Assembly: GCF_001654455.1 (NCBI RefSeq) | Contig: NZ_CP015772.1 | Location: forward strand, 2,480,001-2,544,000 | DNA: 64,000 nucleotides | Reading direction: 5' to 3' | Origin: Niabella ginsenosidivorans | Lineage (GTDB): Bacteria > Bacteroidota > Bacteroidia > Chitinophagales > Chitinophagaceae | Shown here: positions 8,869 through 38,170 of the stretch, piece after piece | Layout: every line of letters begins with the position of its first letter | Position numbering within the stretch: the stretch's first letter is position 1 | Notes under the pieces: model-generated | The model's database searches: none | Told to the model about the DNA's origin: nothing | The model's input: only the letters and a program-made list of their open reading frames with translations | Position numbers and translations under genes: made by a program

Positions 8869-8871
8869 TAT

Positions 8872-9759: not shown

Positions 9760-9767
9760 GCCTTTCT

Positions 9768-11126
9768 TTACTGCGGCTGTAATGCCTCGATCTCTTTAAT
9801 AGCGCCGGTCAGCTCTTCATCCGTAAAAGAGTGGTTTTGCAGTTTGCCGTCAAAATAATCCTGGTAGGCTGCCATGTCTACAAACCCATGTCCGCATAAA
9901 TTAAAAAGAATGGTTTTGCTGATCCCTTCTTCTTTTGCTTTATTCACTTCGCGCAGTACCTGGGCAATACCGTGGTTGGCTTCCGGTGCAGGCACAATGC
10001 CTTCTGTTTTTGCAAACAATACCCCTGCTTCAAAACATTCCAGTTGCTGAATGGCACTTGCCTCAATCAAATCATCTTTCAATAACTGACTACATAGAAC
10101 ACTGGCTCCATGATAACGCAGGCCACCTGCGTGTATAGCTGCAGGTGTAAAGGTGTGGCCCAGGGTATACATAGGCAGCAGCGGCGTATAGCCCTGTGTG
10201 TCGCCAAAATCATACATAAATTTCCCCTTGGTTAATTTTGGACAGGAAGCTGGTTCCACTGCAATACAACGTACATTTTTACCTTCTATCTTATCTTTTA
10301 TAAAAGGGAAAGATAAACCTGCAAAATTGGAGCCGCCACCCAACGGAGCGATGATAATGTCCGGGTAATCGCCTGTATATTCCATTTGCTTTTTAGCCTC
10401 CTGCCCAATAATGGTCTGATGCAGCAATACATGGTTCAGTACAGAACCCAGGGAATACTTGGTATTTTCATCACCGGCTGCTATTTCAATCGCCTCGGAT
10501 ATAGCCAGCCCCAGGCTTCCCGGTGTATTGGGGTTTGCTGCCAGTGCGTTCCTGCCGGCCTGGGTATTGGTGCTGGGCGATGCATAGACCTTAGCCCCAA
10601 AGGTGTTCATTAATATTTTGCGATAAGGCTTTTGATCATAGCTGATGCGCACCATGTATACCTCACAGTCGATACCAAATTGCGCGCAGGCAAAGCTTAA
10701 GGCCGTGCCCCACTGCCCTGCTCCTGTTTCAGTTATAATGCGTTTTACTCCTGCTTTTTTATTGTAGTACGCCTGTGGAATTGCGGTATTGGGTTTATGG
10801 GAACCACTGGGGCTTGTTCCTTCATATTTATAATAAATTTTACAGTCTGTCTTCAAGGCTTTTTCCAGACCCGTGGCTCTTATCAGCGGTGTCGGGCGCC
10901 AGATACGATAAGCTTCCCTTACTTCTTCAGGAATATCAATATAGCGCTCTGCTGATACTTCCTGCTGGATCAGCTCCATGGGGAACAATGGAGCCAGGTC
11001 TTCCCCGCTGATGGGTTGCCTGGTGCCCGGGTGCAAGGGCGGCAGGGGCTTATTGGGCATATCTGCCACTATGTTGTACCACTGGGCAGGCAGATCTTTC
11101 TCATTCAGCAAAATTTTCTTTTCCAT
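9768..11126 (-). CDS. trpB: TrpB2-type tryptophan synthase beta-like enzyme
   Basis: A PLP enzyme that joins indole and serine to make tryptophan. 452 residues from the ATG at 11126 (a TTG lies three codons upstream) is the long TrpB2 form, with the ~80-residue N-terminal extension absent from the TrpB1 partner of TrpA. The PLP lysine is in [14 protein letters not shown] (Lys about 111), the glutamate loop is [13 protein letters not shown], and the phosphate-binding loop is [10 protein letters not shown]. No trpA or other trp gene is nearby; TrpB2 is usually a stand-alone indole-salvage enzyme. A well-spaced promoter lies upstream. Confidence 0.93.
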
Positions 11127-11148
11127 TTCTTGCAAACTGTTTTAGAGC

Positions 11149-11179
11149 TAAATATAAAGCACTTATACTTTATAAACAA
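11149..11179 (-). promoter_or_regulatory. Promoter upstream of trpB2
   Basis: Reading the minus strand, TTG (11177-11179), then 20 bases, then TATATTTA (11149-11156). The Bacteroidota consensus is TTTG-N~19-21-TAnnTTTG, so this is one mismatch in the -7 element. The implied transcript start near 11143 leaves about 15-20 bases of leader before the ATG at 11126. Confidence 0.45.
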
Positions 11180-11235
11180 TTTATAATGAACCAGGATCAA
11201 AAATAGTAATTTAACTTCCGGTCAACGCAGACACT

Positions 11236-11365
11236 ATTGCCGTTAACTTATGGCCCGGGCCTGCAGCTCCTGAAACAAAAACAGATCCCGGAACAAGCCC
11301 GGGATGCCATTTTCAGGGTGCCCCCTAAGAATGATTGTCACTGCCTCATCCGAACTTTCGGATGA
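11236..11365 (-). repeat. Dispersed palindromic repeat, copy at 11.3 kb
   Basis: This fills much of the 343-base gene-free stretch between the trpB2 and lutA-like genes. It contains the perfect hairpin CATCCGAACTTTCGGATG (11347-11364), the hairpin ATCCCGGaacaagCCCGGGAT (11284-11304), and on the minus strand GGCACCCTGAA and TTTGTTTCAGG-CTGCAG strings. The same pieces recur around 53.6 kb (hairpin ATCCGAACATTCGGAT; TTGTTTCAGGGTCTGCAG) and 54.3 kb (GGCACCCTGAACGC). Such GTCATCC-type elements are scattered through intergenic DNA of many Bacteroidota. No coding function is proposed for frames that cross it. Confidence 0.55.
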
Positions 11366-11469
11366 TTTTGTTTTTACAAATGGAAAACTCAATATGACAA
11401 TTAAGGGGCCTTTGGTCAGCGCCAAAAATGTGACGTATAATGCGTGCTTCCTTATTGAAAGCAATACTT

Positions 11470-12189
11470 CTACCACCCGCTTGCCAGCACATCTGCCAGG
11501 TGCATGGTTTTGATGGGATATTTTTTATTATCTATATAGCCCTGCAGATGCATCAGACAGGAAAGGTCGGTGCTGATGAGGTATTCAGCACCTGTGGCAA
11601 GAGCATTTTCTACTTTCTGCTCTCCCATATTTATAGATATTCCGGGAAATTTTACGGCAAAAGTACCTCCAAACCCGCAGCAGGTCTCTACATCGTTCAT
11701 TTCATTCAATATCAGTCCGCGGACGTTGGCAAGCAGGGTTCTTGGCTCCGCTTTTATTTTGCATTCACGCAGGCCGGCGCAGCTGTCGTGATAGGTGGCA
11801 TTCCCTTTTAGTGCAGCACCGGTATCCGTTACCTGTAATATATTAATCAGGAACTCAGAAAACTCAAAGATCTTTGCTCCCAGCGCTTTTACTTCATTAT
11901 GCAGGGATGAATTATCAAACAATGTCGGGTAATAATTACGTACAAAGCCCACGCAGCTTGCACTGGGCGCTACCACATAACCGGCACCACTGAAGTCGTT
12001 TAAGAATTTGGTACAAACCGCCTTTGATTCTTCCCGGAAACCGGCATTAAAAGCGGGCTGACCGCAACAGGTCTGGTTGGTATTATAAGCAACCGTACAT
12101 CCGAACTTTTCCAGCACCTTTACCATATTAAACCCGGTTTGGGGATAAAGCTGATCTACAAAGCAGGGTATGAATAATTGTACGTTCAT
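11470..12189 (-). CDS. LutA/YkgE-like Fe-S oxidoreductase subunit (two CCG domains)
   Basis: 239 residues, the usual length of LutA, the cysteine-rich subunit of the LutABC L-lactate oxidase. Two CCG-type Fe-S motifs are visible: NTNQTCCGQPAFNAGF with an earlier FIPCFVDQLYPQ, and YHDSCAGLRECKI with DVETCCGFGGTFAVKFP. LutB and LutC are absent here, so the subunit is an orphan in this window; partners must lie elsewhere or the protein works alone. It begins one base after the stop of an upstream lipoprotein gene on the same strand, so the two are translationally coupled. Confidence 0.9.
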   Translation of the reverse strand: MNVQLFIPCFVDQLYPQTGFNMVKVLEKFGCTVAYNTNQTCCGQPAFNAGFREESKAVCTKFLNDFSGAGYVVAPSASCVGFVRNYYPTLFDNSSLHNEVKALGAKIFEFSEFLINILQVTDTGAALKGNATYHDSCAGLRECKIKAEPRTLLANVRGLILNEMNDVETCCGFGGTFAVKFPGISINMGEQKVENALATGAEYLISTDLSCLMHLQGYIDNKKYPIKTMHLADVLASGW

Positions 12190-12190
12190 G

Positions 12191-12634
12191 TTACTTTTTC
12201 TGTGCTTTTTGATATTCTTCTATCGTCATTTCATCTCCGCTAACGGGTTCTGTTATTTTAATATCGAAGGTTTGCGGATCTACCGTAAAATTATAATAAG
12301 TTTCAAAATGTGCAGCATTGCCATTATACCCCGCCCTCACACGAATCCTTTTGTCACCGGCCGTATCCATTAAAAATGCAAGACCGTGTTTATGACGGCT
12401 GAACGAATCAATATATTCCTGGGTTTCTGCCACAAAAGGGATCTTTTGCAGACTGTCTGTGATCATTTTCTCTGTGATCGCTCCGGCGGGAGGCTGGGTG
12501 CTTATGGTGTCCGGATGTGCCCTTATTAAGGTAGCGGCAGTATCTGCAGGTGTTGCTGGTTTATTTCCTGTTTCGTTACAGGAAACAATCAATTGCAGAG
12601 CCAGCAATCCGGCAAAAAAATAAAAATACTTCAT
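12191..12634 (-). CDS. Hypothetical lipoprotein
   Basis: 147 residues with a lipoprotein signal (MKYFYFFAGLLALQLIVSC, lipobox Cys 19). A Pro/Thr/Ala-rich linker follows (residues 20-55), then a globular part containing FVAETQEYIDSFSRHKHG, DKRIRVRAGYNGNAAHFET and YYNFTVDPQTFDIKI. The last resembles the repeated-strand layout of small periplasmic domains, but I do not recognise a family. Its TAA is one base from the LutA-like ATG, so the two proteins are probably made together; a functional link to that redox protein is conjecture. Confidence 0.75.
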   Translation of the reverse strand: MKYFYFFAGLLALQLIVSCNETGNKPATPADTAATLIRAHPDTISTQPPAGAITEKMITDSLQKIPFVAETQEYIDSFSRHKHGLAFLMDTAGDKRIRVRAGYNGNAAHFETYYNFTVDPQTFDIKITEPVSGDEMTIEEYQKAQKK

Positions 12635-20763: not shown

Positions 20764-21900
20764 TTATTTCGGCAGCTCCGGCCGGCGCATCCGGTAAGGC
20801 ACCCCGGTTAAGGTATGCAGAAAAGCTATTAATTGCTGCCGCTCTTCTTTGGTAAGACCAAGCGGTTTTAATAAATGATCGGTCCGGGGGAAAAGCGGGT
20901 CGTTCTTTTGCTCTTCTGTTTTGGCTTTTTGCGGCATACCGCTGTTGTACATATTTATAACGCCCTCCAGGTTATCGAATAGGCCATTGTGCATCCAGGG
21001 CCTCGTTCGCTCCAGTTCTCTTAGCGAAGGCGTTCTGAATTTGCCGACATCATCCTTATTATGAGTGACGTTATATCTGCCCAGGTCTTCGTACTTTCTT
21101 TTATAATACGTAAGCCCGATATTATGAAAGCTGGTATCGGTAAGAAAAACACCGTTATGACAGTTCATACAACGGGCTTTGGTGCGGAACAGGTGCAGGC
21201 CCGCAATTTCATCATCATTAAACGCTTTATAATCACCGCTCATAAATTTATCGAAACGGGTACCCCGGCTGCGGATGGTTTTCTGAAATGCAGCCAGGGC
21301 TTTTGAAATTTTGTCAAAGCTCCTTTTCTCTGAACCAAAAGCTTTTATAAATAAGCTGTCATAGCCCTTTATTCCGGCAAGCTTTTCAGGAAGTAAGGGC
21401 ACGTCCATATTCATTTCGTGGTGGGCGCTTAAAGGCGCTACCATTTGTGATTCAAAATCATTTGCCCGGCCATCCCAGAATAATTTGGGATAGATATACA
21501 CGTTTAAAAGGCTTTGCGTATTGCGGCTCCCCTGCAGGTGATCATTGCCTAAAGCCACTACTCTCCCATCCTGCCATGCCAGGTCAGGATCGTGACAACT
21601 GCTGCAGGAGATCTGGCTGGAACCGGAAAGACGGGGATCAAAAAAAAGGAACATACCCAGCCGGGTAACAGGGTCATTCTCTACCAGCATCCAGGTAGTA
21701 TCTTTGGGAATAACCCCCATTTCATACCAGGTAACACCCGGATCGATAGCAGGTTCAGGCCATTGGCTCACAGGGCGGCTATATAAATTTCTCAGCGAAT
21801 CAGCGTAGTGTTTAGATACCTGTGCAGAATGGTTGGTATATGAAAAAGACATCATGCCCAATACCACAATAATAGCAATGACTATAGAAGTTTTACGCAT
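20764..21900 (-). CDS. Di-haem cytochrome c peroxidase (CCP/MauG family)
   Basis: 378 residues with an N-terminal export signal (TSIVIAIIVVLGMMSFSY). Two CxxCH haem sites: SCSSCHDPDLAW in the N-domain and RCMNCHNGVFLTDTSFHNIG in the C-domain; GRYNVTHNKDDVGKFRTPSLRE and PWMHNGLFDNLEGVINMYN are CCP family motifs. Classical members reduce hydrogen peroxide, and MauG-like members oxidise protein side chains. It is the last gene of a four-gene minus-strand operon, four bases after the DUF6850 stop, which suggests a specific partner role rather than general peroxide defence. Confidence 0.93.
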   Translation of the reverse strand: MRKTSIVIAIIVVLGMMSFSYTNHSAQVSKHYADSLRNLYSRPVSQWPEPAIDPGVTWYEMGVIPKDTTWMLVENDPVTRLGMFLFFDPRLSGSSQISCSSCHDPDLAWQDGRVVALGNDHLQGSRNTQSLLNVYIYPKLFWDGRANDFESQMVAPLSAHHEMNMDVPLLPEKLAGIKGYDSLFIKAFGSEKRSFDKISKALAAFQKTIRSRGTRFDKFMSGDYKAFNDDEIAGLHLFRTKARCMNCHNGVFLTDTSFHNIGLTYYKRKYEDLGRYNVTHNKDDVGKFRTPSLRELERTRPWMHNGLFDNLEGVINMYNSGMPQKAKTEEQKNDPLFPRTDHLLKPLGLTKEERQQLIAFLHTLTGVPYRMRRPELPK

Positions 21901-21904
21901 AGGG

Positions 21905-23578
21905 CTACAAAAATATCTGAAATCCTAAAGAAATATTGAATTGATTTTTGCCGCTCGCGGGTTGCTGTAGAAGTTTTCTATCCATATCACTATCTTTTAT
22001 TTTCTGTAAAAAGCCTGCATTAAGCGAAACGGCGGAACCTGTTATTCCTAGCATAGAGGGCGTATAATATAAAAAGCCCAATTGACCATTAAAAAAAGTT
22101 GAGCCCCTGTAATCGTACTCAGGATAAACAACATTTTTTGTAAAAGTATTTACCTGTGTAGCTGCTACCGATAAATCATTTACCAACGGTTTAGTAAAAC
22201 CGGGTTTGATGGTTATTTTAAATAGCTGGTTATTCCTGTAAAAATACTTCCCGGCATATACAGACACATCAGCAACCGTATTTTCATAAAAATGAGCGGC
22301 TAAAAAATCTTTTTTGGTAAAATGCTGTAACCCGCCGTCTATGCCCATTTCAGTGCTTGCTTTTTTTTCTTTTTTTAAAGTAAATAAATATTGAATCCCT
22401 GCAATATGTTCATCAAATAAATAGCTGGCGCCGTTTGACGAAGACATAAGTACGCCTGTACCTTCATTTATAATACCATTCAATGATATCTGATGAGAAG
22501 AGGCATCATTATCCGTATAAATAATAGCAGCCAGTTTTTGTATGGTCAGGTCATAGCTGCTATGCACGAGTTCTTTTATATAATTATTGACTACATCATC
22601 AAAATCACCCCCTGAAGGAATGGTATCAGCTGCATTCCGCAGGTTGAAATTCTTTCTGGCCGCAAAACTGCTAGAATAATTTGCTTTAACATTCCAGGCT
22701 CCGGTTTTTGTGGCAAAGCTGACGCCCCAGGCATCTATCCTGTCTTCCGATCGCGAATATGCCTGTGATGTGTACTGGGCAATATAGCCGTATCCGTCAT
22801 TAATATATAACCGTCTTTCAGGATATTGCTGACTGGTGCGGAACATTTCATTTTTATAAACAATATCATACATGCCATCCCTTTTTCCCAAACTATACGT
22901 TGCTCCGAAAGTTATATTCCTGATTTGAAGAGTTATACCGGGAGTATATTCCAGATGAAAGAGCTTGCTGTCAGGCCGCGGATCAATTGACCCTGTTGAC
23001 CAATGGTAATCGTAGTTAAGCAGTGATGTGATGTATAAATGTTTTATAACCGGGTAACTGATTCCCGCTTCAAAATTCAGGTTTTGCCGTTCATAATTAC
23101 CGGCTTTCGTTGCAAAATGCGTATATGGCTCCCCGTTTTGCAGGTTGCCGCTTAAATTATTAGCAAGGCTGTCTTCCCATATTTTATCAAAATAAAACTT
23201 ACCCATTATTTTAGCTTTGCCAAGCGTTGTAAACCCTTCGGTATAAAGCACCACGTTCTGGGTTTTGCAGGCAGTTACAGGGAGCTTAAAATTCCTGTTT
23301 TGGTTGGTATAGCCCAATTCCAACATAGCAGCCTGCGGTAGTGTATCCGCAACTAATTGCGTAAGGCTGCTTTGCATAAACTGTATTTGTTGCTGCCGGT
23401 AAGTGTTTATATAGAGACTGTCCGACTTCAGCCGCTTGCTACGTTCTGTTTGCAGGACTTTATAAAAATCAGGGCTGACAGATGACAAAGTATCCGCCAA
23501 TACAGGTACCTGTGCATGAAGGCTATTCATGCACAGACACAAGCTTGCAAACAGGTATATTTTAGTGAATCGCCGCAT
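21905..23578 (-). CDS. DUF6850 outer-membrane beta-barrel protein
   Basis: 557 residues from the ATG at 23578 (a TTG lies one codon upstream). Signal peptide (RRFTKIYLFASLCLCMNSLHAQ), a short periplasmic segment, then a long run of amphipathic strands, for example NFEAGISYPVIKHLYITSLL and ITFGATYSLGKRDGMYD, ending NISLGFQIFL with the terminal aromatic/hydrophobic strand of an outer-membrane barrel. I place it in DUF6850 from its size, the LGYTNQNRNFKLP region and its neighbour DUF4876; the family has no known function. It starts five bases after the DUF4876 stop. Confidence 0.75.
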   Translation of the reverse strand: MRRFTKIYLFASLCLCMNSLHAQVPVLADTLSSVSPDFYKVLQTERSKRLKSDSLYINTYRQQQIQFMQSSLTQLVADTLPQAAMLELGYTNQNRNFKLPVTACKTQNVVLYTEGFTTLGKAKIMGKFYFDKIWEDSLANNLSGNLQNGEPYTHFATKAGNYERQNLNFEAGISYPVIKHLYITSLLNYDYHWSTGSIDPRPDSKLFHLEYTPGITLQIRNITFGATYSLGKRDGMYDIVYKNEMFRTSQQYPERRLYINDGYGYIAQYTSQAYSRSEDRIDAWGVSFATKTGAWNVKANYSSSFAARKNFNLRNAADTIPSGGDFDDVVNNYIKELVHSSYDLTIQKLAAIIYTDNDASSHQISLNGIINEGTGVLMSSSNGASYLFDEHIAGIQYLFTLKKEKKASTEMGIDGGLQHFTKKDFLAAHFYENTVADVSVYAGKYFYRNNQLFKITIKPGFTKPLVNDLSVAATQVNTFTKNVVYPEYDYRGSTFFNGQLGFLYYTPSMLGITGSAVSLNAGFLQKIKDSDMDRKLLQQPASGKNQFNISLGFQIFL

Positions 23579-23583
23579 CAATA

Positions 23584-24915
23584 CTATTTCTCAAAAGACG
23601 CATCGGTTTTAGAAGGATCTGCCTTTGTTTTTGTTTCAAAATCATTGGAAGAGTTGTTGGTGTCCTGTAAAATCCTTCTGCCTTCTACTATTTTCACTGT
23701 TTTCCTGATCAGAGACTGGGAGGAGTATTGTCCTCCGGTTACAAACGTGCCTGATACATCTAAAGAAACAGGGAATCGTTTTGGTACCCGATTTGTTTCC
23801 AATGGCGTTAAAATTTCAACTGCATCTATAATATCCGCAACCTTGACCTGAGCACAAAAGCTGGCAGGAGAACCAGGCACTGAGTATCGGGGCCATTCAT
23901 TAACAGGAAATGGTGTTTTTGTTTTAAACATAAAAAAATCTTCTCTGCCGCTGGCATCCATCACCCAGTCATTACCCTGGCGCACATGAACTACATCAAC
24001 ATTTTTAACATTTGGATTATCCACATCCCATTTATAAGGCGTAATATCATTTAGATATTTTATCAGGTTTATTTCAAAATCAGCTTTACTCAAATCTACA
24101 GATAAAGAAGGATCGATAATATTCTGCATAACCGGAACTCCGTTTGTTGTGTCATAGATAGCATAGGGAGCTGTATGGTTAACTGCTGTCTGAGCAATAA
24201 TCATGCTCTTACCAGGTTCCAGCGGATGTTCTTTTCCGTTGCCCGGTATCATAAATAAATATCTTGCATATATATAATCCTTATTAGGATCACCAATATT
24301 TGCCGGCATCCCCGGAGAAGTGCTCCAATCTAAAGGCACACCGCCTGCGCTTATTTTAGTATTCGACTGCCAGGTATTCCCAAAATATAAACTATCTAAA
24401 TAAATGGTTTGATTGGAATTATTGTAGATCTCAACAAATTCATCTCTGAAACTTGCTCCTGTTTTCGTATTAGACCCTGCATAATAAATCTGCTTAAATA
24501 CCAGATCCCCGATCTTACCGCTTTGCAGGGTTAGCTTAATATTCGCATTTTCGTTCACTGCCTGTGTTGCCGTGGCATTGTAAGCCACGTTAGATGCAAC
24601 AGGTATGCTGGTGGCGGCATAAAATTCCTCTGCCGTGTAATTTTTTGAAGCCGAAACCGTGTAATTGCCCGGAGAAACACTTTCAAATATGGCGATCCCG
24701 TCAGCATTGGTAGTGGCCGTATTTTCCTGGCCATTCACCAGGTTGGTTATTTTTACCGGGATATCTGCTTTTGATAACCCGAATGCACTGTCCTCAGTGG
24801 TGTATTCTATCTGAACACTTAACGATACAGCCTTCACTGTATCAATATCCGATTTCCGGCAGCTAAAAAAAACTGCCGCAATTAAAATGCTGAATAACAA
24901 TAGTTGCTTTTTCAT
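23584..24915 (-). CDS. DUF4876 lipoprotein with lamin-tail-like segment
   Basis: 443 residues. A lipoprotein signal (KQLLLFSILIAAVFFSCRK, Cys 19) is followed by a Cna-B/carboxypeptidase-regulatory-like domain (SVQIEYTTEDSAFGLSK to FESVSPGNYTVSASKNY, about 30-110). A long domain follows whose beginning, DLVFKQIYYAGS ... FRDEFVEIYNNSNQTIYLDS, has the lamin-tail-domain pattern (E-x-V-E-I-Y-N-x-S). These features fit DUF4876. No SusD-like fold is present, although the protein takes the SusD position beside a TonB-dependent receptor. It is likely surface or periplasmic and may bind the receptor's ligand. Confidence 0.8.
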   Translation of the reverse strand: MKKQLLLFSILIAAVFFSCRKSDIDTVKAVSLSVQIEYTTEDSAFGLSKADIPVKITNLVNGQENTATTNADGIAIFESVSPGNYTVSASKNYTAEEFYAATSIPVASNVAYNATATQAVNENANIKLTLQSGKIGDLVFKQIYYAGSNTKTGASFRDEFVEIYNNSNQTIYLDSLYFGNTWQSNTKISAGGVPLDWSTSPGMPANIGDPNKDYIYARYLFMIPGNGKEHPLEPGKSMIIAQTAVNHTAPYAIYDTTNGVPVMQNIIDPSLSVDLSKADFEINLIKYLNDITPYKWDVDNPNVKNVDVVHVRQGNDWVMDASGREDFFMFKTKTPFPVNEWPRYSVPGSPASFCAQVKVADIIDAVEILTPLETNRVPKRFPVSLDVSGTFVTGGQYSSQSLIRKTVKIVEGRRILQDTNNSSNDFETKTKADPSKTDASFEK

Positions 24916-24936
24916 GTTTTATATTATGTGTAGTTA

Positions 24937-27699
24937 TTACAATTGCAAACTGCCTCCAATCGTTATGCTTACCGGTATATAATTATACAATCCTACGGTC
25001 TGTGCGCCTTCGCCGTTTGAAATTTTATACGCTTTCGGTTTCATATTCAATACATTGAAAGCGCTTACAGACAGCCTTATTTTTTTATTTATTTCTTTAG
25101 CCACCCGCATATTAAAAGTCCAGAAACCTTTTGAGGGAATAATATTTTTTTCTGCATCATCCTTCTCCGCATCCTTTCTTAAATAAATAAAATCATCACT
25201 ACGTGCCTCTTCGGGCGTCAATGGAATGTATTCCCCGGTATATAAAGTATATCCAACAGGATAAATATTTTGCGCATCCCATCGACCTTTTAATAATGGC
25301 TGATAATCAGCTATAATACTTACAACAAAACCAATACGGGGAATATGTGTAACTGAACCAAAATTGATTACCGAACTGCGGGACACCTTTTGTTTACTCA
25401 GATATGTAACATACACGGCTCCATAACGGGCATAAGCCGCATCAGAAGCTACCTGCGTGACAGTAGGATTCCCGTCTTTATACTCAGAAACCGTATATCC
25501 GCCATTCACTGAGAGGGAAGTAGCAATGACAGGAATGATTTTGGATTGAAATGAGAACTGAATCCCATAATCAACAGAGTGTAACCCGTTATTCATCCGG
25601 GTTCTGCTCAGGTCCCAAATTTTACCGGATGCCCCGGTTGGAAAATAGGTCAGCGTACTGTCTGCATTTATCTTATAATCATAAATGGGTACTGTAACAG
25701 GTATAAATTCATTGAAGGTATTGAACCCATCCTTATTATCCTTGTAATAAGCAAAAACAGAGGCGGTACCAATTTTGGAAGACGTATAGTTAATACCCTG
25801 CTCAAACTGATAAGTGACCGCATTTTTCAGGCTTCTGTTCTCTGCCGGTACCTTTTGAGTGTATACCAGGTATAAGCTGCTTTTTATATAACCGGTGTAC
25901 AGGTTTAACAAAGGTATATCAAAATAGGTAGGTGAAGGATACAGGTGTGCTAAAGAGGGGGCTTTATATGTTATGCCATAAGCGCTGCTTATGCTCAGGT
26001 TTTTATTGATCGTATAGTTAAAAGAAATCCTGGGCTGGGGCATCAGTCTGTTGTTCTGAGTATTTAGCCTGAAACCGGCACCCAGGTTAAACCGTTTGGT
26101 AAACAGCCTGCCTCTGATATTATCCTGAAAATAGACAGAAAAATTATTTTCAAACTGCACACTATCCTCATAATTAAAAGGACGTTCATTTTGATTTGCC
26201 TGATTCACCCATCTGGGCGTATTGGGGTTTACAATATTTCCCTGGCCTTTATTACCGGAAGCATTAAATGAGAGACCAAAAGACAACTGGTGCTTCAGCC
26301 CCAATGTTGACAGCTGCTTTGATTGCATATCCATATTGATACTATATGAAATAGGCTTACCATCTATCTGTTCTACTGCCAGATACTGACCGGGAATAAA
26401 GTAACCTTCATAGACGCCGGTTGTATCTTTGTATCCTATCCCTTTGGGAGATTGATTCATTAAATACTGGTTATAGGAATCCTGCTGTCCAACAGAATAG
26501 TTTAACGCCAGGGATGCGTTATCTAAAAAACGTTTATTGAAACTGAAAGTGGTGTTATTGCTGAGTCTTATGCTTCTTCTTTTTGAATAGCTCATTACCC
26601 TTGCATCATCATCGGGGTCTTGCTTGATATCATCAAAATTTGATGAGGCCGTTATTGTAAACGAGTTCCGGATATTATCAGTGATATTTTTTGTCCACTT
26701 GATGCTTACATTAATATTATCATAGGTTTTTAGCTGATCCCGGGGATCATCGTTGCTGTTGGTATACCCTACGCTAAAATTTAATGCGCCTGCTTTTTTA
26801 CCCAGATCAAAACCCCTGGACAAAGAAAAACTGCTGGATCCCCCATTGATATTTGTATTAAAGCTGTAAGGCGTTTTACCGGCTTTGGTTGTTATCAGTA
26901 TTGCGCCATTTGTAAAATCGCCATACCTTGATGAACCAATGCCCTGGATAATTTCTATGCTGGCAATGTTGGACATAGGAATATCTCTCAGATCAAAGCC
27001 ATTATAGGTAACATCTGATGCCGGTTTTCCCTGCGCATTCAACGCGGAACCTCCAAATCCACGGGAAGATAATCCACGCGATTGCATATCTGTTTCATTA
27101 CTGATGCGGATGCCATCGATAAAAATGGCGATGCCAAAAGAATTATTAACGGCACTAAAACCATCCGCAGCTGTCCTTAATGTAATGGTTTGAGGTGTCT
27201 GTAGATTCGGCGGCTGCGTTTTCTTACCAGGTAATGCATTTATTATATCCGCCAGAGAAAATGCCTGCAACTGCCGTATGGCCTCTTCATCAAACACGAT
27301 TGATGAAGCAGAATTCTGGTTTTTAACTACGCTTGTTACAACAACATTATTAAGGGTTAAACTCAGGTTTTGTAATATTATTTTTAAAATAAGCGGATAA
27401 TTTTCGCGCCTTACAATTACTGTTTCGGCAGCTTTATTTATAAAGGAAGCCTGCAGCTCAATACTGTCGTAATTCAGCAGCGTTGCCGGAAACTCAAACT
27501 CACCTTTTGCGTTGGTGTTACGTGAAGCTATTTCAACATTATCGACGCTTAGCTTTACTGTTGCAAATTGTATGGGTTTTCCCTGTGTATCTTCCACTAC
27601 TCCTTGTAAACCATTGCCATTCTGCGCATTCACTCCTGAAACTGCACTTGCTGTAATTAAAAGCCAGATACAGAAATATTTAGCGATAGTTTTGCCCAT
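24937..27699 (-). CDS. TonB-dependent outer-membrane receptor
   Basis: 920 residues. Signal peptide (YFCIWLLITASAVSGVNAQ), CarboxypepD_reg-like domain (GLQGVVEDTQGKPIQFATVK, about 30-115), plug domain (LNNVVVTSVVKNQNSAS, LADIINALPGKK, SIEIIQGIGSSRYGDFTNGA) and a 22-strand barrel ending YNYIPVSITIGGSLQL. Unlike SusC proteins it has no SusD partner and is of receptor rather than SusC length (~1000). The ligand is unknown; siderophore, haem, cobalamin, metal or peptide are all possible. First gene of the TBDR-DUF4876-DUF6850-CCP operon. Confidence 0.94.
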   Translation of the reverse strand: MGKTIAKYFCIWLLITASAVSGVNAQNGNGLQGVVEDTQGKPIQFATVKLSVDNVEIASRNTNAKGEFEFPATLLNYDSIELQASFINKAAETVIVRRENYPLILKIILQNLSLTLNNVVVTSVVKNQNSASSIVFDEEAIRQLQAFSLADIINALPGKKTQPPNLQTPQTITLRTAADGFSAVNNSFGIAIFIDGIRISNETDMQSRGLSSRGFGGSALNAQGKPASDVTYNGFDLRDIPMSNIASIEIIQGIGSSRYGDFTNGAILITTKAGKTPYSFNTNINGGSSSFSLSRGFDLGKKAGALNFSVGYTNSNDDPRDQLKTYDNINVSIKWTKNITDNIRNSFTITASSNFDDIKQDPDDDARVMSYSKRRSIRLSNNTTFSFNKRFLDNASLALNYSVGQQDSYNQYLMNQSPKGIGYKDTTGVYEGYFIPGQYLAVEQIDGKPISYSINMDMQSKQLSTLGLKHQLSFGLSFNASGNKGQGNIVNPNTPRWVNQANQNERPFNYEDSVQFENNFSVYFQDNIRGRLFTKRFNLGAGFRLNTQNNRLMPQPRISFNYTINKNLSISSAYGITYKAPSLAHLYPSPTYFDIPLLNLYTGYIKSSLYLVYTQKVPAENRSLKNAVTYQFEQGINYTSSKIGTASVFAYYKDNKDGFNTFNEFIPVTVPIYDYKINADSTLTYFPTGASGKIWDLSRTRMNNGLHSVDYGIQFSFQSKIIPVIATSLSVNGGYTVSEYKDGNPTVTQVASDAAYARYGAVYVTYLSKQKVSRSSVINFGSVTHIPRIGFVVSIIADYQPLLKGRWDAQNIYPVGYTLYTGEYIPLTPEEARSDDFIYLRKDAEKDDAEKNIIPSKGFWTFNMRVAKEINKKIRLSVSAFNVLNMKPKAYKISNGEGAQTVGLYNYIPVSITIGGSLQL

Positions 27700-27709: not shown

Positions 27710-27717
27710 CAAAAGTA
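27710..27717 (-). promoter_or_regulatory. Candidate -7 element of the TBDR operon
   Basis: The minus strand reads TACTTTTG, a perfect TAnnTTTG, ending 11 bases from the receptor ATG at 27699. This would leave a leader of about five bases. There is no clear -33 TTG. No Fur-box-like palindrome was recognised in the 180-base gap upstream of 27699. Confidence 0.35.
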
Positions 27718-27879
27718 CCCTACCTTTTCACTTTGTATTTACGAAATGCGGAAAAATTTGTAGCAGGGTGGAATATTAATTGCGGGTGCGCCAATGTTTA
27801 TCAACCACACCTTTATTGTTATGGCTTTTAGCTTTTTTCTGCAAATTTCTTATTGGACTGGCGTTAAGCGCCCGGCTCT

Positions 27880-30800
27880 TTATTCATCTGCATCGCCCAG
27901 CTGAAAATTGAGCTGCGGCTTGTTGGGATCAAGATCTACTTTTTCCGGTGTTGTTCCAAAGCGGGCTACATTATTCCCCGGCGTACGGTCAATAAGTTTT
28001 AAATATGGGTCAATACCTGCCTTTACCGGTTGCTGATGAACAGTAAATATAAATGTCTGCTCCGGCTGAACCATTTTTATCCGTTGTAGTATCAATGGAT
28101 TTTCATTTCCGTTTGCCTTCTTTTCTGCAAATACACCGATATCCATATAATCATTTACCGCGGCCCTTTTTTGCTTACCCACGCTGTCTGCATAAAACTT
28201 TGCAGACCCGACGGTGAGCGTTACTTTATAGCTACCGTCCGGCAGCTTTTTATAATCCAGGGCCTTTACATAATTTTCATAGATCGTTATTTTCTCAAAC
28301 AGGTCGCTGACCAGGTATTGCAGGCTGTCCGGGGTTGCTTTTTTTAAATCATTCACCAATTCAACGGAATTGGTATATAAAGGTCCGTAATATCGGTTCT
28401 TATTAATATAAGCCCTCAGTGCATTGTTCAATGCCTCTTCTCCTATAAAGTCCTTAAGCGCGTACAGGACCACGCTTCCTTTATTATAATGAATATACTG
28501 TTGGTTCTCACAAAGCATCAGCGGTAGCTCCCCTTTTCCTTCCAGGGTGCGGCCCCGCAAATAATGATCCATTTCCCTTTTCAGGAACCGGCGCATACCA
28601 TCTTTACCATATTCCTTTTCCATAACCATCAGAGCGCTGTACTGGCTCATGGTTTCGCTCATGAGCACGCTGCCCTGCACATCGCCGCCAATTACCTGGT
28701 GCGCCCACCATTGATGCGCTACTTCATGAGCTGTTACATAAAAAGGCAGGTCTATCTTTCCGGGGCCTTCTTTTACTTTTAAAATAAAACCGATATCTTC
28801 TGAATAAGGAATGGTGTTTGGGAATGACTGCGCATATTGCCGGTAGCGCGGAAATTCTATGATGCGCACCTGCCGGTGCTGGTAAGGCCCGAAGTTTTTT
28901 GTATAATAATCCAGCGATCTTTTCACACTTTTGATCATCCGGTCCAGGTTGTATTCATGGCCCTGCTGGTAGCAGATCTCAATAGCCACACCGTTCCAAT
29001 GATCTTTTTTTACCCGGTAGGCAGCGCTGAGGAAGGAGTAAAAATTCAGAATGGGGCTGTCCATCCGGTACTGGTAATAATGCCGCCCTCCGGCTTTCCA
29101 TTCTTTTTGCAGGTAACCGGGCGCAAGGGCGATCTGGCCCTCATCGGTACTGACAGTCGCTTCAAAACGGATCCAGTCTGCATCATGAGAAATATAATTA
29201 TACCTCCTTGCCAAAGTATCATCTACTTTTGCCATACGGGCTTTGGGCGGAAGCCCATAATCTTTGCGGGCCTTGTTCTCACCCAGTTCCAGCCTTGGGT
29301 CGTACCCAATCATCGGGAACAATGCATTGCTGATAAAAGTACCGTTGCTGACCACTTCTGAATGGATCCGGTCCAATAACCCGCGCGGGCTGTATACTAC
29401 ATCAAATCTATACACGATACTATCTCCCGGCTGAAGCGGCTGCTGTAAACGGAACAATTGCACGCCGTATTCCTGATCATTTGAAATAAGGGTTGCCGGA
29501 ACCTGCAGCCAGGATTTTAAAAAACGGAACCTGCTTTTTTTGCCGGCTTCGTATTTTATATAAACAGTGTCGATGGGTTGACCTATTTTATTCTTTAATG
29601 TATAAAGGCCGCGGGCATGAAAACTTTTAGACTTTGTAAACAACTCCACATCAACAGTAACCGATACGATCCTGGGCTGCGCCATCCCTTCATATCTTTT
29701 ATAACGCTTTTCAAATGCTGCCTGCAGCCCCTGCTGCACTTTGGGAGTGGATGCATCCTGCAGAATGTTCTGCTGATAAAAAATAAAGGCGCCGGTTCCT
29801 GCCGTAATCAATACCAATAGCGCCAATAATAGCCGGAAGCGAAATGTATTTGCTTCTTTTGACAGTCGCCATCTTGCCTTCAGCGATCTTTCTTTTCCGC
29901 GGGGGTACAATAAAATACCCAACATGCACAAAAGCCCGGTCATCCCCATCCAGTAAACACGGAAAAAGGGCCAGTTGATAAAATCGCCTCCGAAACCATT
30001 CATATCAGAATACGGTCTCATATCGCCGTTGCCATTAAAATCATAAAGATCCCCATTCCATTGCAAGAAAGAAAAAACGATCGGGAGCAACAGGATGGGA
30101 ACCAGTGAAAGAAAGAAACCAAGGTACTTGTCGGTAGTAAAGCACTGGATGGCCAGACAGGCACCTATAATTACGATTCCTTCAAAAAAATCCCGGATCA
30201 CGGCAACCACATACTGCCAGAGATCAACCGTACCGGATCCGGCATACAGCTGAAGCAGTATTCCCGTAAGCGCTGCTATGGCATAAAGCACCAACAGGAC
30301 GAGCGATAAAGCCATGAGCCGGGACAGGAATAACAGGGAATTGCTTACCGGCGTTACACCGATGAGTTCATCCATTTTTGTTTCCTTATTCCTCCATATA
30401 ACAGTGCCTGCTGAAAAGATAAGAAAGATCATTCCAAAGAACGGAAAGATGCCCATCACCATAGAAACGATCGTATGCGTAACCAGGTAGGTAGGCGCAT
30501 CTGAGAACAGATCATTCAAGCGGACGGTGAGCACCAGCATGCCCAGGCACAATAAAAGAATGATAAAGAAAAAAGGCTTTTTCAGGGCCTTCCGGAATTC
30601 AAACCGGGTAAGGTGCAGGAGGCGCACCCACCGGCTGTTGCCCGAAAGGTTCTGCATAACCTTGGGGAGCCTGTCATATTTTTTTGCGGGATCAGCATTC
30701 CAATCTGCTTCGCTGGCCCTTTTGAAAAAACGCAGCGGCTGCAGGTATTGTGAAAAGTTAAACCCGGTATACCCTACTATACAAATAACAACAGCAACAC

Positions 30801-31560
30801 CGATCCACAGCAGGCGGTTATAAAGCAATACACCGGTAAGCGGGATCAGGTTATTATTTTTTTCCTGTGGTGTCCAGTAGGCGGTTATATAACGAAAAGC
30901 TTTTTCACCCAACGGATCAAGCATTGCAGCAAGCATTTTATGATCCATATCTTCTCCAATGGCACCGGATGCCACAAGAACCACCATAAAAATGATCGCA
31001 AATATATAGGAGGCCATGGTGCTCCTGAGAAAGGTGGTCAGCGAAAAAAAGATCGTACCCAGCAATATGATATTAGGCAGGGTAAATAACAAAAAGGGCT
31101 GCAAATAATTCATCAGCTTAAAAGGCCCTACGCCGGGCTTCCCCACGCATAACAATGTGCCGGTAAGATATCCCAGGGCCAGACCGGAAAATACAAATAC
31201 AGCTACCGCCAGCGAACCGGACAGGCGCCCCCAGAAATAACCGGCTTTTGAAATGGGTTTTGTAAAGAACAGCGGATATATGTTGTACTGATAATCTTTC
31301 TGAATGGCTGTGCCTGCAATTGAAATAAGAATAATGCATACCAGTATGCTGAAAATATTGCCACCGGTGCCAATGAGCACGCCGGCTACGGATGCAGCAG
31401 AATTAATGGTAACGTTACTGTCTGATTTTGCAGTAGCAAAGAAGCCGCCGCTTGCCAGCCCAATCAGCAGTGTCAGTAGGAACAGGATCCCAAAATAAAT
31501 ATAGGTAGCCGGTTTCTTAAAGCCGGTCTTTAGTTCAAAGGAGCAGATTTCTTTAAACAT
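27880..31560 (-). CDS. ABC-2 permease fused to an M1-family aminopeptidase
   Basis: 1226 residues in one chain. The first ~580 residues hold about twelve transmembrane helices of ABC-2 type (two sets, beginning FYFG-like LLFLLTLLIGLASGGFF and FFFIILLLCLGMLVLTV). The remaining ~640 are an exported M1 metallopeptidase domain with zinc motif HEVAHQWWAHQ (about residue 948) and the third ligand Glu in LMSETMSQYSALM, here 19 residues after the motif. The partner ATPase starts six bases upstream. The family is known in Bacteroidota as 'ABC transporter permease/M1 aminopeptidase'; whether it transports the peptides it cleaves is not established. Confidence 0.93.
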   Translation of the reverse strand: MFKEICSFELKTGFKKPATYIYFGILFLLTLLIGLASGGFFATAKSDSNVTINSAASVAGVLIGTGGNIFSILVCIILISIAGTAIQKDYQYNIYPLFFTKPISKAGYFWGRLSGSLAVAVFVFSGLALGYLTGTLLCVGKPGVGPFKLMNYLQPFLLFTLPNIILLGTIFFSLTTFLRSTMASYIFAIIFMVVLVASGAIGEDMDHKMLAAMLDPLGEKAFRYITAYWTPQEKNNNLIPLTGVLLYNRLLWIGVAVVICIVGYTGFNFSQYLQPLRFFKRASEADWNADPAKKYDRLPKVMQNLSGNSRWVRLLHLTRFEFRKALKKPFFFIILLLCLGMLVLTVRLNDLFSDAPTYLVTHTIVSMVMGIFPFFGMIFLIFSAGTVIWRNKETKMDELIGVTPVSNSLLFLSRLMALSLVLLVLYAIAALTGILLQLYAGSGTVDLWQYVVAVIRDFFEGIVIIGACLAIQCFTTDKYLGFFLSLVPILLLPIVFSFLQWNGDLYDFNGNGDMRPYSDMNGFGGDFINWPFFRVYWMGMTGLLCMLGILLYPRGKERSLKARWRLSKEANTFRFRLLLALLVLITAGTGAFIFYQQNILQDASTPKVQQGLQAAFEKRYKRYEGMAQPRIVSVTVDVELFTKSKSFHARGLYTLKNKIGQPIDTVYIKYEAGKKSRFRFLKSWLQVPATLISNDQEYGVQLFRLQQPLQPGDSIVYRFDVVYSPRGLLDRIHSEVVSNGTFISNALFPMIGYDPRLELGENKARKDYGLPPKARMAKVDDTLARRYNYISHDADWIRFEATVSTDEGQIALAPGYLQKEWKAGGRHYYQYRMDSPILNFYSFLSAAYRVKKDHWNGVAIEICYQQGHEYNLDRMIKSVKRSLDYYTKNFGPYQHRQVRIIEFPRYRQYAQSFPNTIPYSEDIGFILKVKEGPGKIDLPFYVTAHEVAHQWWAHQVIGGDVQGSVLMSETMSQYSALMVMEKEYGKDGMRRFLKREMDHYLRGRTLEGKGELPLMLCENQQYIHYNKGSVVLYALKDFIGEEALNNALRAYINKNRYYGPLYTNSVELVNDLKKATPDSLQYLVSDLFEKITIYENYVKALDYKKLPDGSYKVTLTVGSAKFYADSVGKQKRAAVNDYMDIGVFAEKKANGNENPLILQRIKMVQPEQTFIFTVHQQPVKAGIDPYLKLIDRTPGNNVARFGTTPEKVDLDPNKPQLNFQLGDADE

Positions 31561-31566
31561 AGCAGC

Positions 31567-32436
31567 TTAGTTGGTGGCAATGGTTGAAAAATATACGTCT
31601 TCCAGCCCGGCCGTTACCGGATCAAAACCCTCTTCCGGCCGGTCATCCGACAATACATGGATAATGAGCTTCCCTTCTGAAATGTATTGCGAGATCACTT
31701 TGAATTGTTCCATATATTGTTTCAATGCCGTTTTTTCAATCACCTTCCGCCATATCCTTCCCTGGAAGGCTTCTACTGTTTTTGCAGGCGTTCCCTCCAG
31801 CAATATCCTTCCCTTATTCATTACCACCATTTTATTACAAAGCGTTCTCACATCTTCCACAATATGGGTGGAAAGAATCACAATCACCTGCTCGCCGATC
31901 TCGCTTAAAATATTATAAAAGCGATTGCGCTCCATGGGATCCAGACCCGCGGTAGGCTCATCAACGATCACCAGCCGCGGATTCCCCAGCAGGGCCTGTG
32001 CTATTCCAAAACGCTGGCGCATGCCACCGGAATATTCGCTCAGGTTCCGCCTGCGGGTTTCATATAAATTGGTCTGCTGCAGTAATGCGTCTACTATATC
32101 ATTACGTTCCGCCCTGTCAGTAATGCCTTTTAATACCGCAAAATGATGCAAAAGATCCAGCGCAGTCACCCGCGGGTAAAAACCAAAATCCTGAGGCAAA
32201 TAGCCCAATACCTTTCTTAACGCAGCTTTTTGGTTCAGTACATCAATATCGCCCAAATGAATACTGCCGCTGTCCGGATCCTGTAGTGTGGCGATGGTAC
32301 GCATCAGGGTGCTCTTTCCGGCGCCGTTGGGCCCTAAAAGACCAAACATACCCTTGTCAATGGTAAGATGGATATTCTCAAGCGCTTTTAATGTGCCCCT
32401 GTAGGTTTTACTTAAATTGCGGATCTGTAGTTGCAT
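31567..32436 (-). CDS. ABC transporter ATP-binding protein (partner of the M1 fusion)
   Basis: 289 residues. Walker A LLGPNGAGKSTLM (about 33-45), Q-loop in LGYLPQDFGFYP, signature YSGGMRQRFGIAQAL, Walker B LVIVDEPTAGLD and switch His in LSTHIVEDV. This is a DrrA/CcmA-type subunit that energises ABC-2 permeases. Its stop is six bases from the start of the permease-peptidase fusion, so they form a two-gene operon. The extra ~60 C-terminal residues (QFKVISQYISEGKLIIHVL) form a small regulatory domain seen in related exporters. Confidence 0.95.
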   Translation of the reverse strand: MQLQIRNLSKTYRGTLKALENIHLTIDKGMFGLLGPNGAGKSTLMRTIATLQDPDSGSIHLGDIDVLNQKAALRKVLGYLPQDFGFYPRVTALDLLHHFAVLKGITDRAERNDIVDALLQQTNLYETRRRNLSEYSGGMRQRFGIAQALLGNPRLVIVDEPTAGLDPMERNRFYNILSEIGEQVIVILSTHIVEDVRTLCNKMVVMNKGRILLEGTPAKTVEAFQGRIWRKVIEKTALKQYMEQFKVISQYISEGKLIIHVLSDDRPEEGFDPVTAGLEDVYFSTIATN

Positions 32437-37153: not shown

Positions 37154-38170
37154 TTATTTTTTACTGTCTTTTGCAGCATCCGGCACGGCAGGTTGTGCAG
37201 TTGCCTGTGGAGCCTGTTGAGGCGGTGTGTCGGCTACCCGCATAATCTCTACCTCAAAATACAGCGGCTCATATTCCTTAAACGGGGAACCAGGCGGCGG
37301 ATTTTTACCGTAGGCAAGGAACCCGGGTATATAAATCACTCCTTTGCCTCCCTCTTTAAATTGCTTTACCCCGTCATCAAATCCCGGTATAGAAGAACCG
37401 TCTGTACCAACCTGGGCCGTAAAAGAATCGGGGCCTATAAATACAGCATCCCCCTCTACTTTTTTACCGGTGTACCTGAGCGTTACAAACTTCCCGTCTG
37501 CCGCCTGCTTGCCTGTACCGGGTTGATCTATTTTTACAAAGGTTCCTAAAGCGGTTTTTGTAGCAGTAATATTTTTCTTCTTCAGATAGGCCTCCATTTC
37601 AGAAAGCTGTTTTTGCCTGCCTCCTGATTTTTCAAAAGCAATGGAGTCCTCTCTTTCCTTTTGTTCCATCCTTTTCTGGAACGCCTCTCCTTCTTTCTGG
37701 TAATCCAGTCTTGCCAGGCTGTCTGACTGGAACACGTCCAGCACTTTAAGGGTAAAGGTCAGTTGGTCTCCCTTCTTCATAAACGGAGGTAGCTGGGCTT
37801 CCTGGGCAATTCCCTTTTTAATAAGAGAATCCACATACAGGATCACAACAGCGCTATCTCCTTTTTTAAGGAATTTATAGATCTCATCAGGTGCATAAAA
37901 CGGCTGACCCGGCAGCTGCTTTATATCCTGAACCTGGGCATAAAAAGGGATCCTGCTGTAAGTATCTTCCAACAGGGTATCCTTTGAACCGGAAAGCCTT
38001 ACGGATTGATTCATTTTTAAAATAGCGCCTGTTTTTGTGGAATCTTTGCTGCTGCCTTCATAGATCCTGTACTTTAATCCACTGGAAGTGGTCTTAAAAC
38101 CGGAATTCCGGCATGCAGCAAACGCTAGCACTGTTAAAAGCATCAACCCCTGTAATTGCAACTTTTTCAT
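37154..38170 (-). CDS. FKBP-type peptidylprolyl isomerase lipoprotein, copy 1
   Basis: 338 residues with a lipoprotein signal (KKLQLQGLMLLTVLAFAAC). A central charged, helical region (residues ~145-200, rich in K/E/Q) separates an N-terminal FKBP-like domain (SSGLKYRIYEGSSKDSTKTG) from a C-terminal FKBP domain with GKFVTLRYTGKK, GSSIPGFDDGVKQF and GVIYIPGFLAYGKNPPPGSP. It is a tandem paralogue of the next gene, 31 bases apart, sharing an almost identical C-terminal block. Likely an envelope-folding factor. It has a good terminator 24 bases downstream. Confidence 0.92.
   Translation of the reverse strand: MKKLQLQGLMLLTVLAFAACRNSGFKTTSSGLKYRIYEGSSKDSTKTGAILKMNQSVRLSGSKDTLLEDTYSRIPFYAQVQDIKQLPGQPFYAPDEIYKFLKKGDSAVVILYVDSLIKKGIAQEAQLPPFMKKGDQLTFTLKVLDVFQSDSLARLDYQKEGEAFQKRMEQKEREDSIAFEKSGGRQKQLSEMEAYLKKKNITATKTALGTFVKIDQPGTGKQAADGKFVTLRYTGKKVEGDAVFIGPDSFTAQVGTDGSSIPGFDDGVKQFKEGGKGVIYIPGFLAYGKNPPPGSPFKEYEPLYFEVEIMRVADTPPQQAPQATAQPAVPDAAKDSKK

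Follow-up and report, generated by a model that had tools for sequence, protein, structure and literature searches.

A four-gene operon in Niabella ginsenosidivorans

In a 64-kb stretch of the single-contig, 5.63-Mb genome of Niabella ginsenosidivorans (hereafter the window), four genes lie head to tail on the minus strand, separated by gaps of 21, 5 and 4 bases. They encode a TonB-dependent receptor (TBDR), a lipoprotein with a DUF4876 domain, an outer-membrane beta-barrel of family DUF6850, and an exported di-haem enzyme of the MauG/cytochrome c peroxidase (CCP) superfamily. Comparison with relatives indicates that the first three form a trio that is replaced as a cassette in front of a constant enzyme gene, and that the operon very likely serves iron-regulated uptake.

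The first gene (24937..27699) specifies a receptor of 920 amino acids (aa) with matches above cut-off to PF00593 (TonB_dep_Rec) and PF07715 (Plug) and a CarboxypepD_reg match slightly under cut-off; in relatives, too, a DUF4876 gene adjoins it. The 443-aa lipoprotein (23584..24915) combines a lipobox with Cys19, a Cna-B-like domain, an LTD-like segment and a C-terminal DUF4876 domain (PF16215, 96.4 bits against a cut-off of 27.9), while its CarboxypepD_reg, SdrD_B and LTD matches all remain under their cut-offs. The barrel (21905..23578) lacks a plug, has about 18 long strands by hand count, and matches PF21012 with 245.3 bits (cut-off 27, E 2e-72). The fourth gene (20764..21900) encodes the 378-aa di-haem enzyme, which carries two CxxCH motifs and matches PF03150 with 158.5 bits (cut-off 25.6). 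For DUF6850, the list of open reading frames (ORFs) gives a TTG start at 23581, and the next codon, an ATG at 23578, is an invariant column in 51 sequences. This ATG is the probable true start, from which the gap lengths above follow.

A preliminary description of this DNA, made from its letters, had proposed four packed co-directional genes, a receptor without SusD, and a Cna-B-like domain in the lipoprotein. The first two hold and the third is supported: every ORF is present, no SusD was detected among the nine proteins scanned (operon and neighbors), and a structure model of the lipoprotein, with a predicted local distance difference test (pLDDT) score of 91.2, finds mainly Cna-B-type pilins and adhesin-like folds after its best PDB match, 4q1z, the solved DUF4876 structure of BT_1938. 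The DUF6850 model (pLDDT 89.0) consists of N-terminal helices followed by the long strands. Its nearest Foldseek matches are TBDR barrels and AlgE, with query TM-scores of at most 0.41 among the 50 matches listed, such that the structure searches point to no function and, for DUF6850, only to barrels in general. As for a possible lipoprotein export signal, the number of acidic residues behind the lipobox varies, with three in 36 of 121 sequences and none in 21 of 121, the Cys having been picked mechanically.

A conserved trio with a di-haem accessory

Among 395 Bacteroidota genomes, DUF4876 and DUF6850 each occur above cut-off in 37, and a DUF6850 match of any score is found in 47 genomes, including 35 of the 37 with DUF4876. 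The other two DUF4876 genomes (G009 and G035; loci are cited below by L numbers) have no table match to DUF6850, although a profile grown from the window's protein does label one in G035. Together with the window, the 46 regions that we fetched represent every one of the 37 DUF4876 genomes, and they were labeled with profiles grown from the window's own proteins. The order TBDR-DUF4876-DUF6850 recurs nearly everywhere in these 47 regions and constitutes a near-obligate Bacteroidota trio. The di-haem gene, in comparison, adjoins the trio in only nine regions, window included (9 of 37 DUF4876 genomes), with a short ORF intervening in L073. In a receptor tree of 45 rows, made by a quick method, it is limited to one set of 16 receptors, occurring in 9 of these and in none of the remaining 29. 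The tree takes five changes, at least four of them forced, and the fork of the set itself is drawn open (SH-aLRT, the Shimodaira-Hasegawa-like approximate likelihood-ratio test, 95). The CCP thus belongs, as an accessory, to a single receptor set.

Other genes occupy the slot behind DUF6850 in scanned loci that lack the CCP, among them a HEAT-repeat gene (L061), a PepSY-TM-like pair (L062) and a peroxiredoxin gene (L063). In L090 the trio is followed by a BNR-repeat protein sorted by the type IX secretion system and by a HEAT-repeat protein, and L101 has DUF4857 and ABC genes in its interior. In another receptor clade, ∼740-aa proteins come after the trio: in L090, which was scanned, and, judged by gene length, in L092-L099.

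The reciprocal question was addressed with a scan of named bacterial genomes. A TBDR alignment was dropped as the query, since no stretch of it is conserved enough, and the di-haem alignment was used instead; the best 80 of 526 confirmed relatives were kept, representing 79 distinct loci (scan loci). These are ranked by likeness to the window's CCP and are therefore uninformative on trios without a CCP. The closest named relatives of the gene are from Niabella (79 and 75% identity). All four genes occur in the window's order in 66 of the 79 scan loci, 65 recognized by profile plus L119, whose DUF6850 was identified later, and in seven more the di-haem gene is arranged head to head with that of the receptor (L124, L127, L147, L170, L175, L180 and L184). 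The closest di-haem relatives thus lie beside a trio in 73 of 79 scan loci, and the four-gene order is far beyond chance.

No trio gene is present in the fetched locus in the remaining six cases (L112, L113, L149, L156, L167 and L177, the last a 3-kb contig). In L112 and L113 (Paraflavitalea, ∼8160-12350) the di-haem gene stands between a 158-aa gene, a DUF4920 match in L113, and a 705-718-aa gene, which in L112 is another TBDR. In L156 and L167, from two metagenome-assembled Sphingobacterium genomes (∼4450-10140), it stands behind four other genes, in L156 those for a SusD-like protein, Peptidase_Mx1, DUF4302 and clostripain; this gene set is perhaps a second partner system of the di-haem subclass.

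The joint role that the preliminary description had assigned to all four genes thus stands in part. The genes belong together, and receptor, lipoprotein and barrel are one unit, with the CCP added in one receptor set. The same description had named frequent occurrence of DUF4876 and DUF6850 without a CCP gene as evidence against itself, and the search of genomes for co-occurrence cuts both ways: 28 of 37 DUF4876 genomes have no CCP next to the trio, while this CCP subclass is seldom found away from one.

Exchange of the trio as a cassette

Pairwise and residue comparisons were made on 79 four-gene loci, comprising eight of the nine CCP-bearing loci of the phylum sample (window included) and 71 of the 79 scan loci. 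L073 is missing from this set due to the extra short ORF before its CCP, and L064 and L160 are probably one genome. The lipobox cysteine is present in all 79. Among the 3081 pairs, 377 have di-haem proteins at least 70% identical, and in 95 of these the receptors share less than 40% identity. Sphingobacterium detergens (L141) and Sphingobacterium sp. CZ-UAM (L152), for example, have di-haem proteins that are 98% identical, whereas their receptors, DUF4876 proteins and DUF6850 proteins match at 35, 42 and 23%.

The boundaries of the divergent segment are visible in DNA. L141 and L152 align on both flanks, with one weak match (67%, 330 bases) within the trio. L141 and L146 are 92% identical up to the receptor's ATGAAAAA, do not align across the trio, and are 90% identical from the ATG of the di-haem gene onward. 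Similarly, L159 and L164 (S. bovisgrunnientis and S. cavernae), whose receptors are 27% identical, match at 95% upstream to 136 bases before the receptor of L159 and at 96% from inside the di-haem gene. This flank test covered 30 of 51 discordant pairs (both members from the scan, operon on the plus strand), eight of which have upstream homology.

The window's own genus exhibits the same behavior. The di-haem gene is present in 8 of 17 Niabella genomes, the nine without it including some incomplete ones, and lies beside a trio in all eight, once head to head and once with split frames (L282). The trios fall into four types in which all three proteins group alike: receptors are 60-78% identical within types and 25-41% between them (25-35% without L282, whose identities are those of fragments), and the di-haem proteins are 67-95% identical throughout. 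Trees were built from seven of the eight genus loci, L282 being left out for its split TBDR and DUF6850 frames, and 16 others. In the di-haem tree Niabella forms one clade (100/100). The receptor tree, by contrast, requires four changes, and a single Niabella receptor clade is rejected (lnL lower by 1599, p-AU 1.2e-36, by a quick method and subject to a long-branch warning). The window's genome has one DUF4876 match and one DUF6850 match, so that a hidden paralog does not explain the discordance there. One CCP lineage serves trios whose members are only 21-45% identical.

Two further cases in the genus stand out. In L282 (genome G405, 2227-8029) the receptor and DUF6850 frames are in pieces next to an intact di-haem gene, reflecting decay or sequencing errors. 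L284 and L285 have di-haem genes that are 85% identical, but the trio of one is head to head with its di-haem gene, whereas that of the other runs in the same direction and belongs to a different type, which appears to be an exchange with a change of orientation. Judged by these alignments, the trio behaves as a unit that is inherited and exchanged together, with the promoter element described below and the di-haem enzyme staying in place.

A di-haem enzyme with a MauG-like ligand position

The haem motifs of the enzyme span C99-H103 and C244-H248, and Glu162, Tyr318 and Met322 are further residues of interest. The C-terminal 94 residues match best to 6e1c (1.7e-9), which we take to be MbnH, followed by MauG (4.1e-6) and BthA (0.00025), with classical peroxidases at 0.0008 or weaker. 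For the full-length protein, in contrast, classical peroxidases are the top PDB hits. In the alignment, Tyr318 falls opposite residue 294 of the deposited MauG chain, presumably the Tyr ligand of the six-coordinate haem. Classical bacterial cytochrome c peroxidases use Met as the axial ligand of the C-terminal haem; by alignment the window's enzyme has Tyr there, with a nearly invariant Met322 four residues on. Tyr318 and Glu162, the latter at a position to which we ascribe a catalytic role, occur in 92 of 92 aligned sequences, Met322 in 91, and Met317 varies among M, I, L and F. The sequence lacking Met322 (L108) is the second CCP_MauG protein of the window's genome, and its retention of Tyr318 means that the Tyr is not special to this operon. 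Bit scores fall below the equivalog cut-offs for MauG (TIGR03791, 235.1 of 443.85) and MbnH (TIGR04039, 205.8 of 362.85). The protein is thus MauG-like at the ligand position, as predicted by alignment, but is not established as MauG or MbnH, and the earlier name "cytochrome c peroxidase" holds only as the label of the superfamily to which its domain match and two CxxCH motifs assign it.

MauG and MbnH act on a Trp of a partner protein. No conserved Trp (85% threshold) is present in the receptor, lipoprotein or barrel of the 79 four-gene loci, a result that argues against their maturation in the Trp-type manner. Residues specific to trios with a CCP were also considered as candidates, and were rejected: none is a Trp, and the few Tyr columns are confounded by descent.

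Probable iron-responsive control

In the head-to-head loci, a palindrome near TATTTAGAATnATTCTAAATA lies in the shared intergenic region; it occurs twice in L124 and L175, one copy per promoter, and by eye also twice in L127 and L180. We searched the receptor upstream regions of 70 of 79 loci, namely those with a receptor longer than 800 aa, an adjacent DUF4876 gene and enough upstream sequence. With up to three mismatches the Fur-box-like site is found in 44 of 70, compared with one for the reversed pattern and a mean of 0.3 (maximum 3) for ten dinucleotide shuffles. The numbers are 12 at up to two mismatches (controls 0) and 52 at up to four (reversed 6, shuffles 1.6). Across the genomes of three relatives the palindrome occurs 15, 21 and 19 times, and the reversed pattern once in each. 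Of these 55 sites, 48 were inspected with their surroundings: a gene begins within 300 bases of 45, one is intragenic, and two are without a gene start. Scans of 30 of the 58 adjacent genes identified TBDRs (one above the siderophore-receptor cut-off), a siderophore-interacting protein, sigma factors, FecR, AraC regulators, glutamyl-tRNA reductase (HemA), CcmE, SdhC, an NADH-dehydrogenase subunit and a [2Fe-2S] protein. A FecR gene also ends immediately upstream of the receptor in three Chitinophaga loci.

The palindrome was derived from the operon loci before we found the Fur box of Riemerella anatipestifer, with which it agrees: ATTTAGAATTATTCTAAAT, for which electrophoretic mobility shift assays were carried out on four promoters (PMC5609570, whose abstract gives the E. 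coli form of the box). The promoters of many relatives carry such Fur-box sites.

The window's own promoter carries a different sequence. The element TTTCCGCATTTCGTAAA (27738..27754, minus strand) lies 39-55 bases before the receptor start and is the sole site in the window at up to one mismatch. A candidate -7 element, TACTTTTG (27710..27717, minus strand), read from the sequence, fits the Bacteroidota -7 consensus, TAnnTTTG. Near the receptor start, the upstream element is present in all eight di-haem-bearing genomes of the genus, exact except for two mismatches in L284. L280 has a second exact copy at 1924, in front of an M43 peptidase/GEVED gene that immediately precedes the operon. In its asymmetric form, TTTCCNNATTTCGTAAA, the element has nine sites at up to one mismatch in the window's genome (reversed, 2) and seven in N. 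pedocola (reversed, 2). Five of the nine precede or overlap TBDR starts, those of this operon and four others, the site in L264 lying inside the first codons of the longest frame, where the first domain begins at residue 61. The best NCBIfam models for the four other receptors are siderophore receptors (partial sequences, under cut-offs). In N. pedocola all five exact sites precede TBDRs, two of them in tandem before one gene. From these target genes, we infer that the regulator acting on the Niabella element would be iron-dependent.

Published expression data for DUF4876 loci point the same way. Iron depletion is reported to raise PG1019-22 of Porphyromonas gingivalis 20.8-214.5-fold, and BT3625-33 and BT1933-39 of Bacteroides thetaiotaomicron 36.7-128-fold and 3.5-7.4-fold (PMC10434189). 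In a haemin experiment the P. gingivalis DUF4876 gene moves with hmuY, with LFC values of -5.42 and -6.11 whose contrast direction we take from context (PMC10470040), and the two genes change together in three further published data sets. PG1019, the DUF4876 gene, also heads a table of P. gingivalis genes raised in periodontitis (log2 fold change 7.56; PMC5807917). Among open-licence PMC papers, preprints excluded, DUF4876 is mentioned in three, BT1938/1939/3631-3633 in one and DUF6850 in none, and the titles and starts of abstracts among the records listed revealed no paper on a TBDR/DUF4876/CCP operon.

A model for the operon and its alternatives

The explanation we favor, and consider reasonably probable as a whole, is that the operon responds to iron starvation and mediates TonB-dependent import of a ligand that bears iron, with a common oxidative step in the periplasm. 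Iron starvation would switch the operon on. The surface lipoprotein might capture the ligand or hand it to the receptor, and the second barrel might be part of the same outer-membrane complex or provide passage for a product. The cassette would decide which iron compound enters, and the MauG-like enzyme would act in the periplasm after import, performing one step common to the ligands of all the receptors, most plausibly oxidation of the chelator or iron carrier such that iron is freed. The parts of this model differ in strength. That uptake is regulated by iron is very likely, and we are equally confident that the trio is a functional unit: it is swapped whole, and its three members therefore probably must match each other. 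Since the enzyme and the promoter stay when the trio changes, the enzyme probably does not depend on any single ligand. A constant enzyme under iron control favors a cassette that sets the imported compound and an enzyme that carries out one oxidative step for all. That this task is oxidation of the ligand itself is a tentative suggestion with the odds against it. More speculative still is a universal iron-releasing periplasmic oxidase that frees iron from many chemically different chelators, with the ligand range changed by swapping the three-gene cassette. The preliminary description had allowed a metal, haem or aromatic ligand; an iron-bearing one is now the most likely, given the Fur boxes, the siderophore-type co-targets and the iron repression described in PMC10434189.

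Several observations weigh against this explanation. The window's own promoter contains no Fur box, the best match having seven mismatches, and 18 of the 70 relatives lack a Fur-box-like site even at four. Some Fur-like sites precede genes with no obvious connection to iron, such as those for DinB_2 and a Gfo/Idh-type oxidoreductase, or genes for proteins of no matched family. As a 17-base palindrome, the Niabella element was rejected, its symmetric form not being enriched (40 sites against 71 reversed in the window's genome, 46 against 50 in N. pedocola). Four of the nine sites of the asymmetric form do not precede TBDRs: two are inside ORFs, and the other two lie ahead of a LacI-type regulator (by ∼250 bases) and of a superoxide dismutase gene (by ∼270 bases). 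Neither of the two one-mismatch sites of N. pedocola was seen to precede a TBDR: one falls within a long ORF, the other in front of an ORF outside the scanned set. The window's receptor scores far under the siderophore-receptor cut-off (TIGR01783, 27.4 of 223.5 bits), and an iron-costly enzyme in an iron-starvation operon calls for a special reason. Finally, most trio genomes have no adjacent CCP, which is therefore dispensable for the trio in general.

The enzyme could instead be a periplasmic scavenger of hydrogen peroxide that limits Fenton damage during iron import, which we consider unlikely but the strongest of the alternatives. A peroxidase need not know the ligand, and so would fit the exchange of trios; the superfamily assignment, the invariant Glu162 and the best whole-length structural matches all agree with this role. 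The CCP is, moreover, absent from the four f11 loci within this receptor set, presumably those of Bacteroides-like anaerobes, and in one of these an AhpC/TSA gene follows the trio at a distance of 150 bases. The strict linkage to one receptor type would be unexpected for a scavenger, however, and the ligand position holds Tyr rather than Met. Tyr ligation in MauG leads to poor peroxidase turnover. This last argument is not decisive, since bis-Fe(IV) chemistry and peroxidase activity can coexist, as described for BthA (PMC6405878).

Another proposal concerns the barrel. By analogy with Slam of Neisseria, an exporter of lipoproteins to the surface, DUF6850 might be dedicated to placing its own lipoprotein on the surface rather than serve as a ligand pore. 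Its gene adjoins the lipoprotein gene in nearly all loci, the two are exchanged together, and N-terminal helices precede the barrel. Nonetheless, its best structural matches are transport barrels, and other genes separate the two in 3 of the 46 fetched regions (L091, L101 and L104), such that we regard this role as doubtful.

It is less likely again that the ligand is haem or a porphyrin that the enzyme takes or breaks. P. gingivalis is a haem auxotroph, and the co-variation of its DUF4876 gene with hmuY in the haemin experiment and the three other data sets would suit such a ligand, but limitation for iron and for haem is hard to separate in this species. Furthermore, no haem-specific NCBIfam model matches the window's receptor, and the Niabella promoter element is common to siderophore-type receptors.

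MauG-style maturation, in which the enzyme would render the receptor, lipoprotein or barrel functional by oxidizing one of its residues, was part of the preliminary hypothesis and is weakened to the point of being improbable. The MauG-like Tyr318, the best C-terminal matches and the close gene neighborhood agree with it, and the receptor's Tyr817 is more frequent in CCP loci (76 of 79 against 13 of 32), although descent confounds this comparison. Tyr168 of DUF6850, found in 76 of 79 loci, is Leu in the window. A single enzyme lineage acting on such divergent trios, the lack of a conserved Trp, and the many trios that have no adjacent enzyme gene all argue against maturation, with the qualification that the barrels align poorly and that targets other than Trp are conceivable.

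Ordinary fast evolution of surface proteins, in place of exchange, can be set aside almost entirely: TBDR and CCP identities do correlate overall (r 0.78 over the 3081 pairs) and the receptor tree has long branches, but at equal CCP distance the receptors may be 60 or 28% identical (CCP/receptor 81/60 for L280-L286, 82/28 for L280-L281), flanks that are 90-96% identical enclose non-aligning trios in two independent species pairs, and the single Niabella receptor clade is rejected.

Under the iron-uptake model, DUF4876 and DUF6850, two families of no known function, would probably act together in acquiring iron throughout the phylum, including gut and oral species where DUF4876 genes rank among those responding most strongly to iron. 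The replacement of a whole receptor unit between a conserved promoter and a conserved enzyme amounts to a natural experiment. It separates a part that would confer specificity, the trio, from a constant part, the di-haem enzyme, and brings the role of MauG-like enzymes at iron loci within reach of experiment.

Neighboring genes

The neighbor families that recur most around the loci of the 79 relatives do so only within Chryseobacterium, which marks the four genes as the unit. In the window, the gene upstream of the operon ends 180 bases before the receptor and encodes a 1226-aa protein (27880-31560) in which ABC-2 permease-like segments, under cut-off, are fused to an M1 aminopeptidase domain; an ABC ATPase gene (31567-32436) lies beside it. 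About 6 kb upstream of the operon is a gene for a 394-aa MauE/DoxX-domain protein (PF07291, 34052-35236), with no sign of a connection with the MauG-like gene. Two adjacent genes for FKBP-type isomerases (37154-38170 and 38202-39209) and, beside them, a DHH-family gene (39228-40244) follow, all of these on the minus strand.

Comparison with known systems

The closest counterparts are PG1019-PG1022, BT1933-39 and BT3625-33, iron-repressed loci that likewise pair a DUF4876 protein with a TBDR (PMC10434189). They differ by containing, according to product names, HEAT-repeat, PepSY-TM, DUF4857 and ABC genes, and no di-haem enzyme. SusC/SusD systems also combine a TBDR that has a CarboxypepD_reg-like domain with a lipoprotein partner; here the partner is instead a Cna-B/LTD/DUF4876 protein, SusD is absent from the nine scanned proteins, and there is an additional barrel. 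We take BT2063-65 to be the xenosiderophore system XusABC. It resembles the operon as an iron-repressed TBDR locus with partner proteins, in the account of which no SusD is named (PMC10434189). The partners in XusABC are DUF4374 and PepSY proteins, and it has neither a second barrel nor a di-haem gene.

A probable di-haem enzyme is also encoded in BT2473-82, whose "thiol oxidoreductase" presumably belongs to the DHOR family. This locus is another iron-repressed one of the Bacteroidota, with a porin and the probable di-haem oxidoreductase, but its families are different ones by name and include peptidase M75, and no TBDR is named in its listing (PMC10434189). For the enzyme itself, the nearest parallels are MauG and the methanobactin system MbnT/MbnP/MbnH, which share with it the MauG-like di-haem architecture with Tyr at the ligand position. 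In the mbn case, too, such an enzyme is encoded beside a TBDR. The window's enzyme differs in falling far under both equivalog cut-offs, no MbnP or methylamine dehydrogenase (MADH) is seen among its neighbors, and control is apparently by iron rather than copper.

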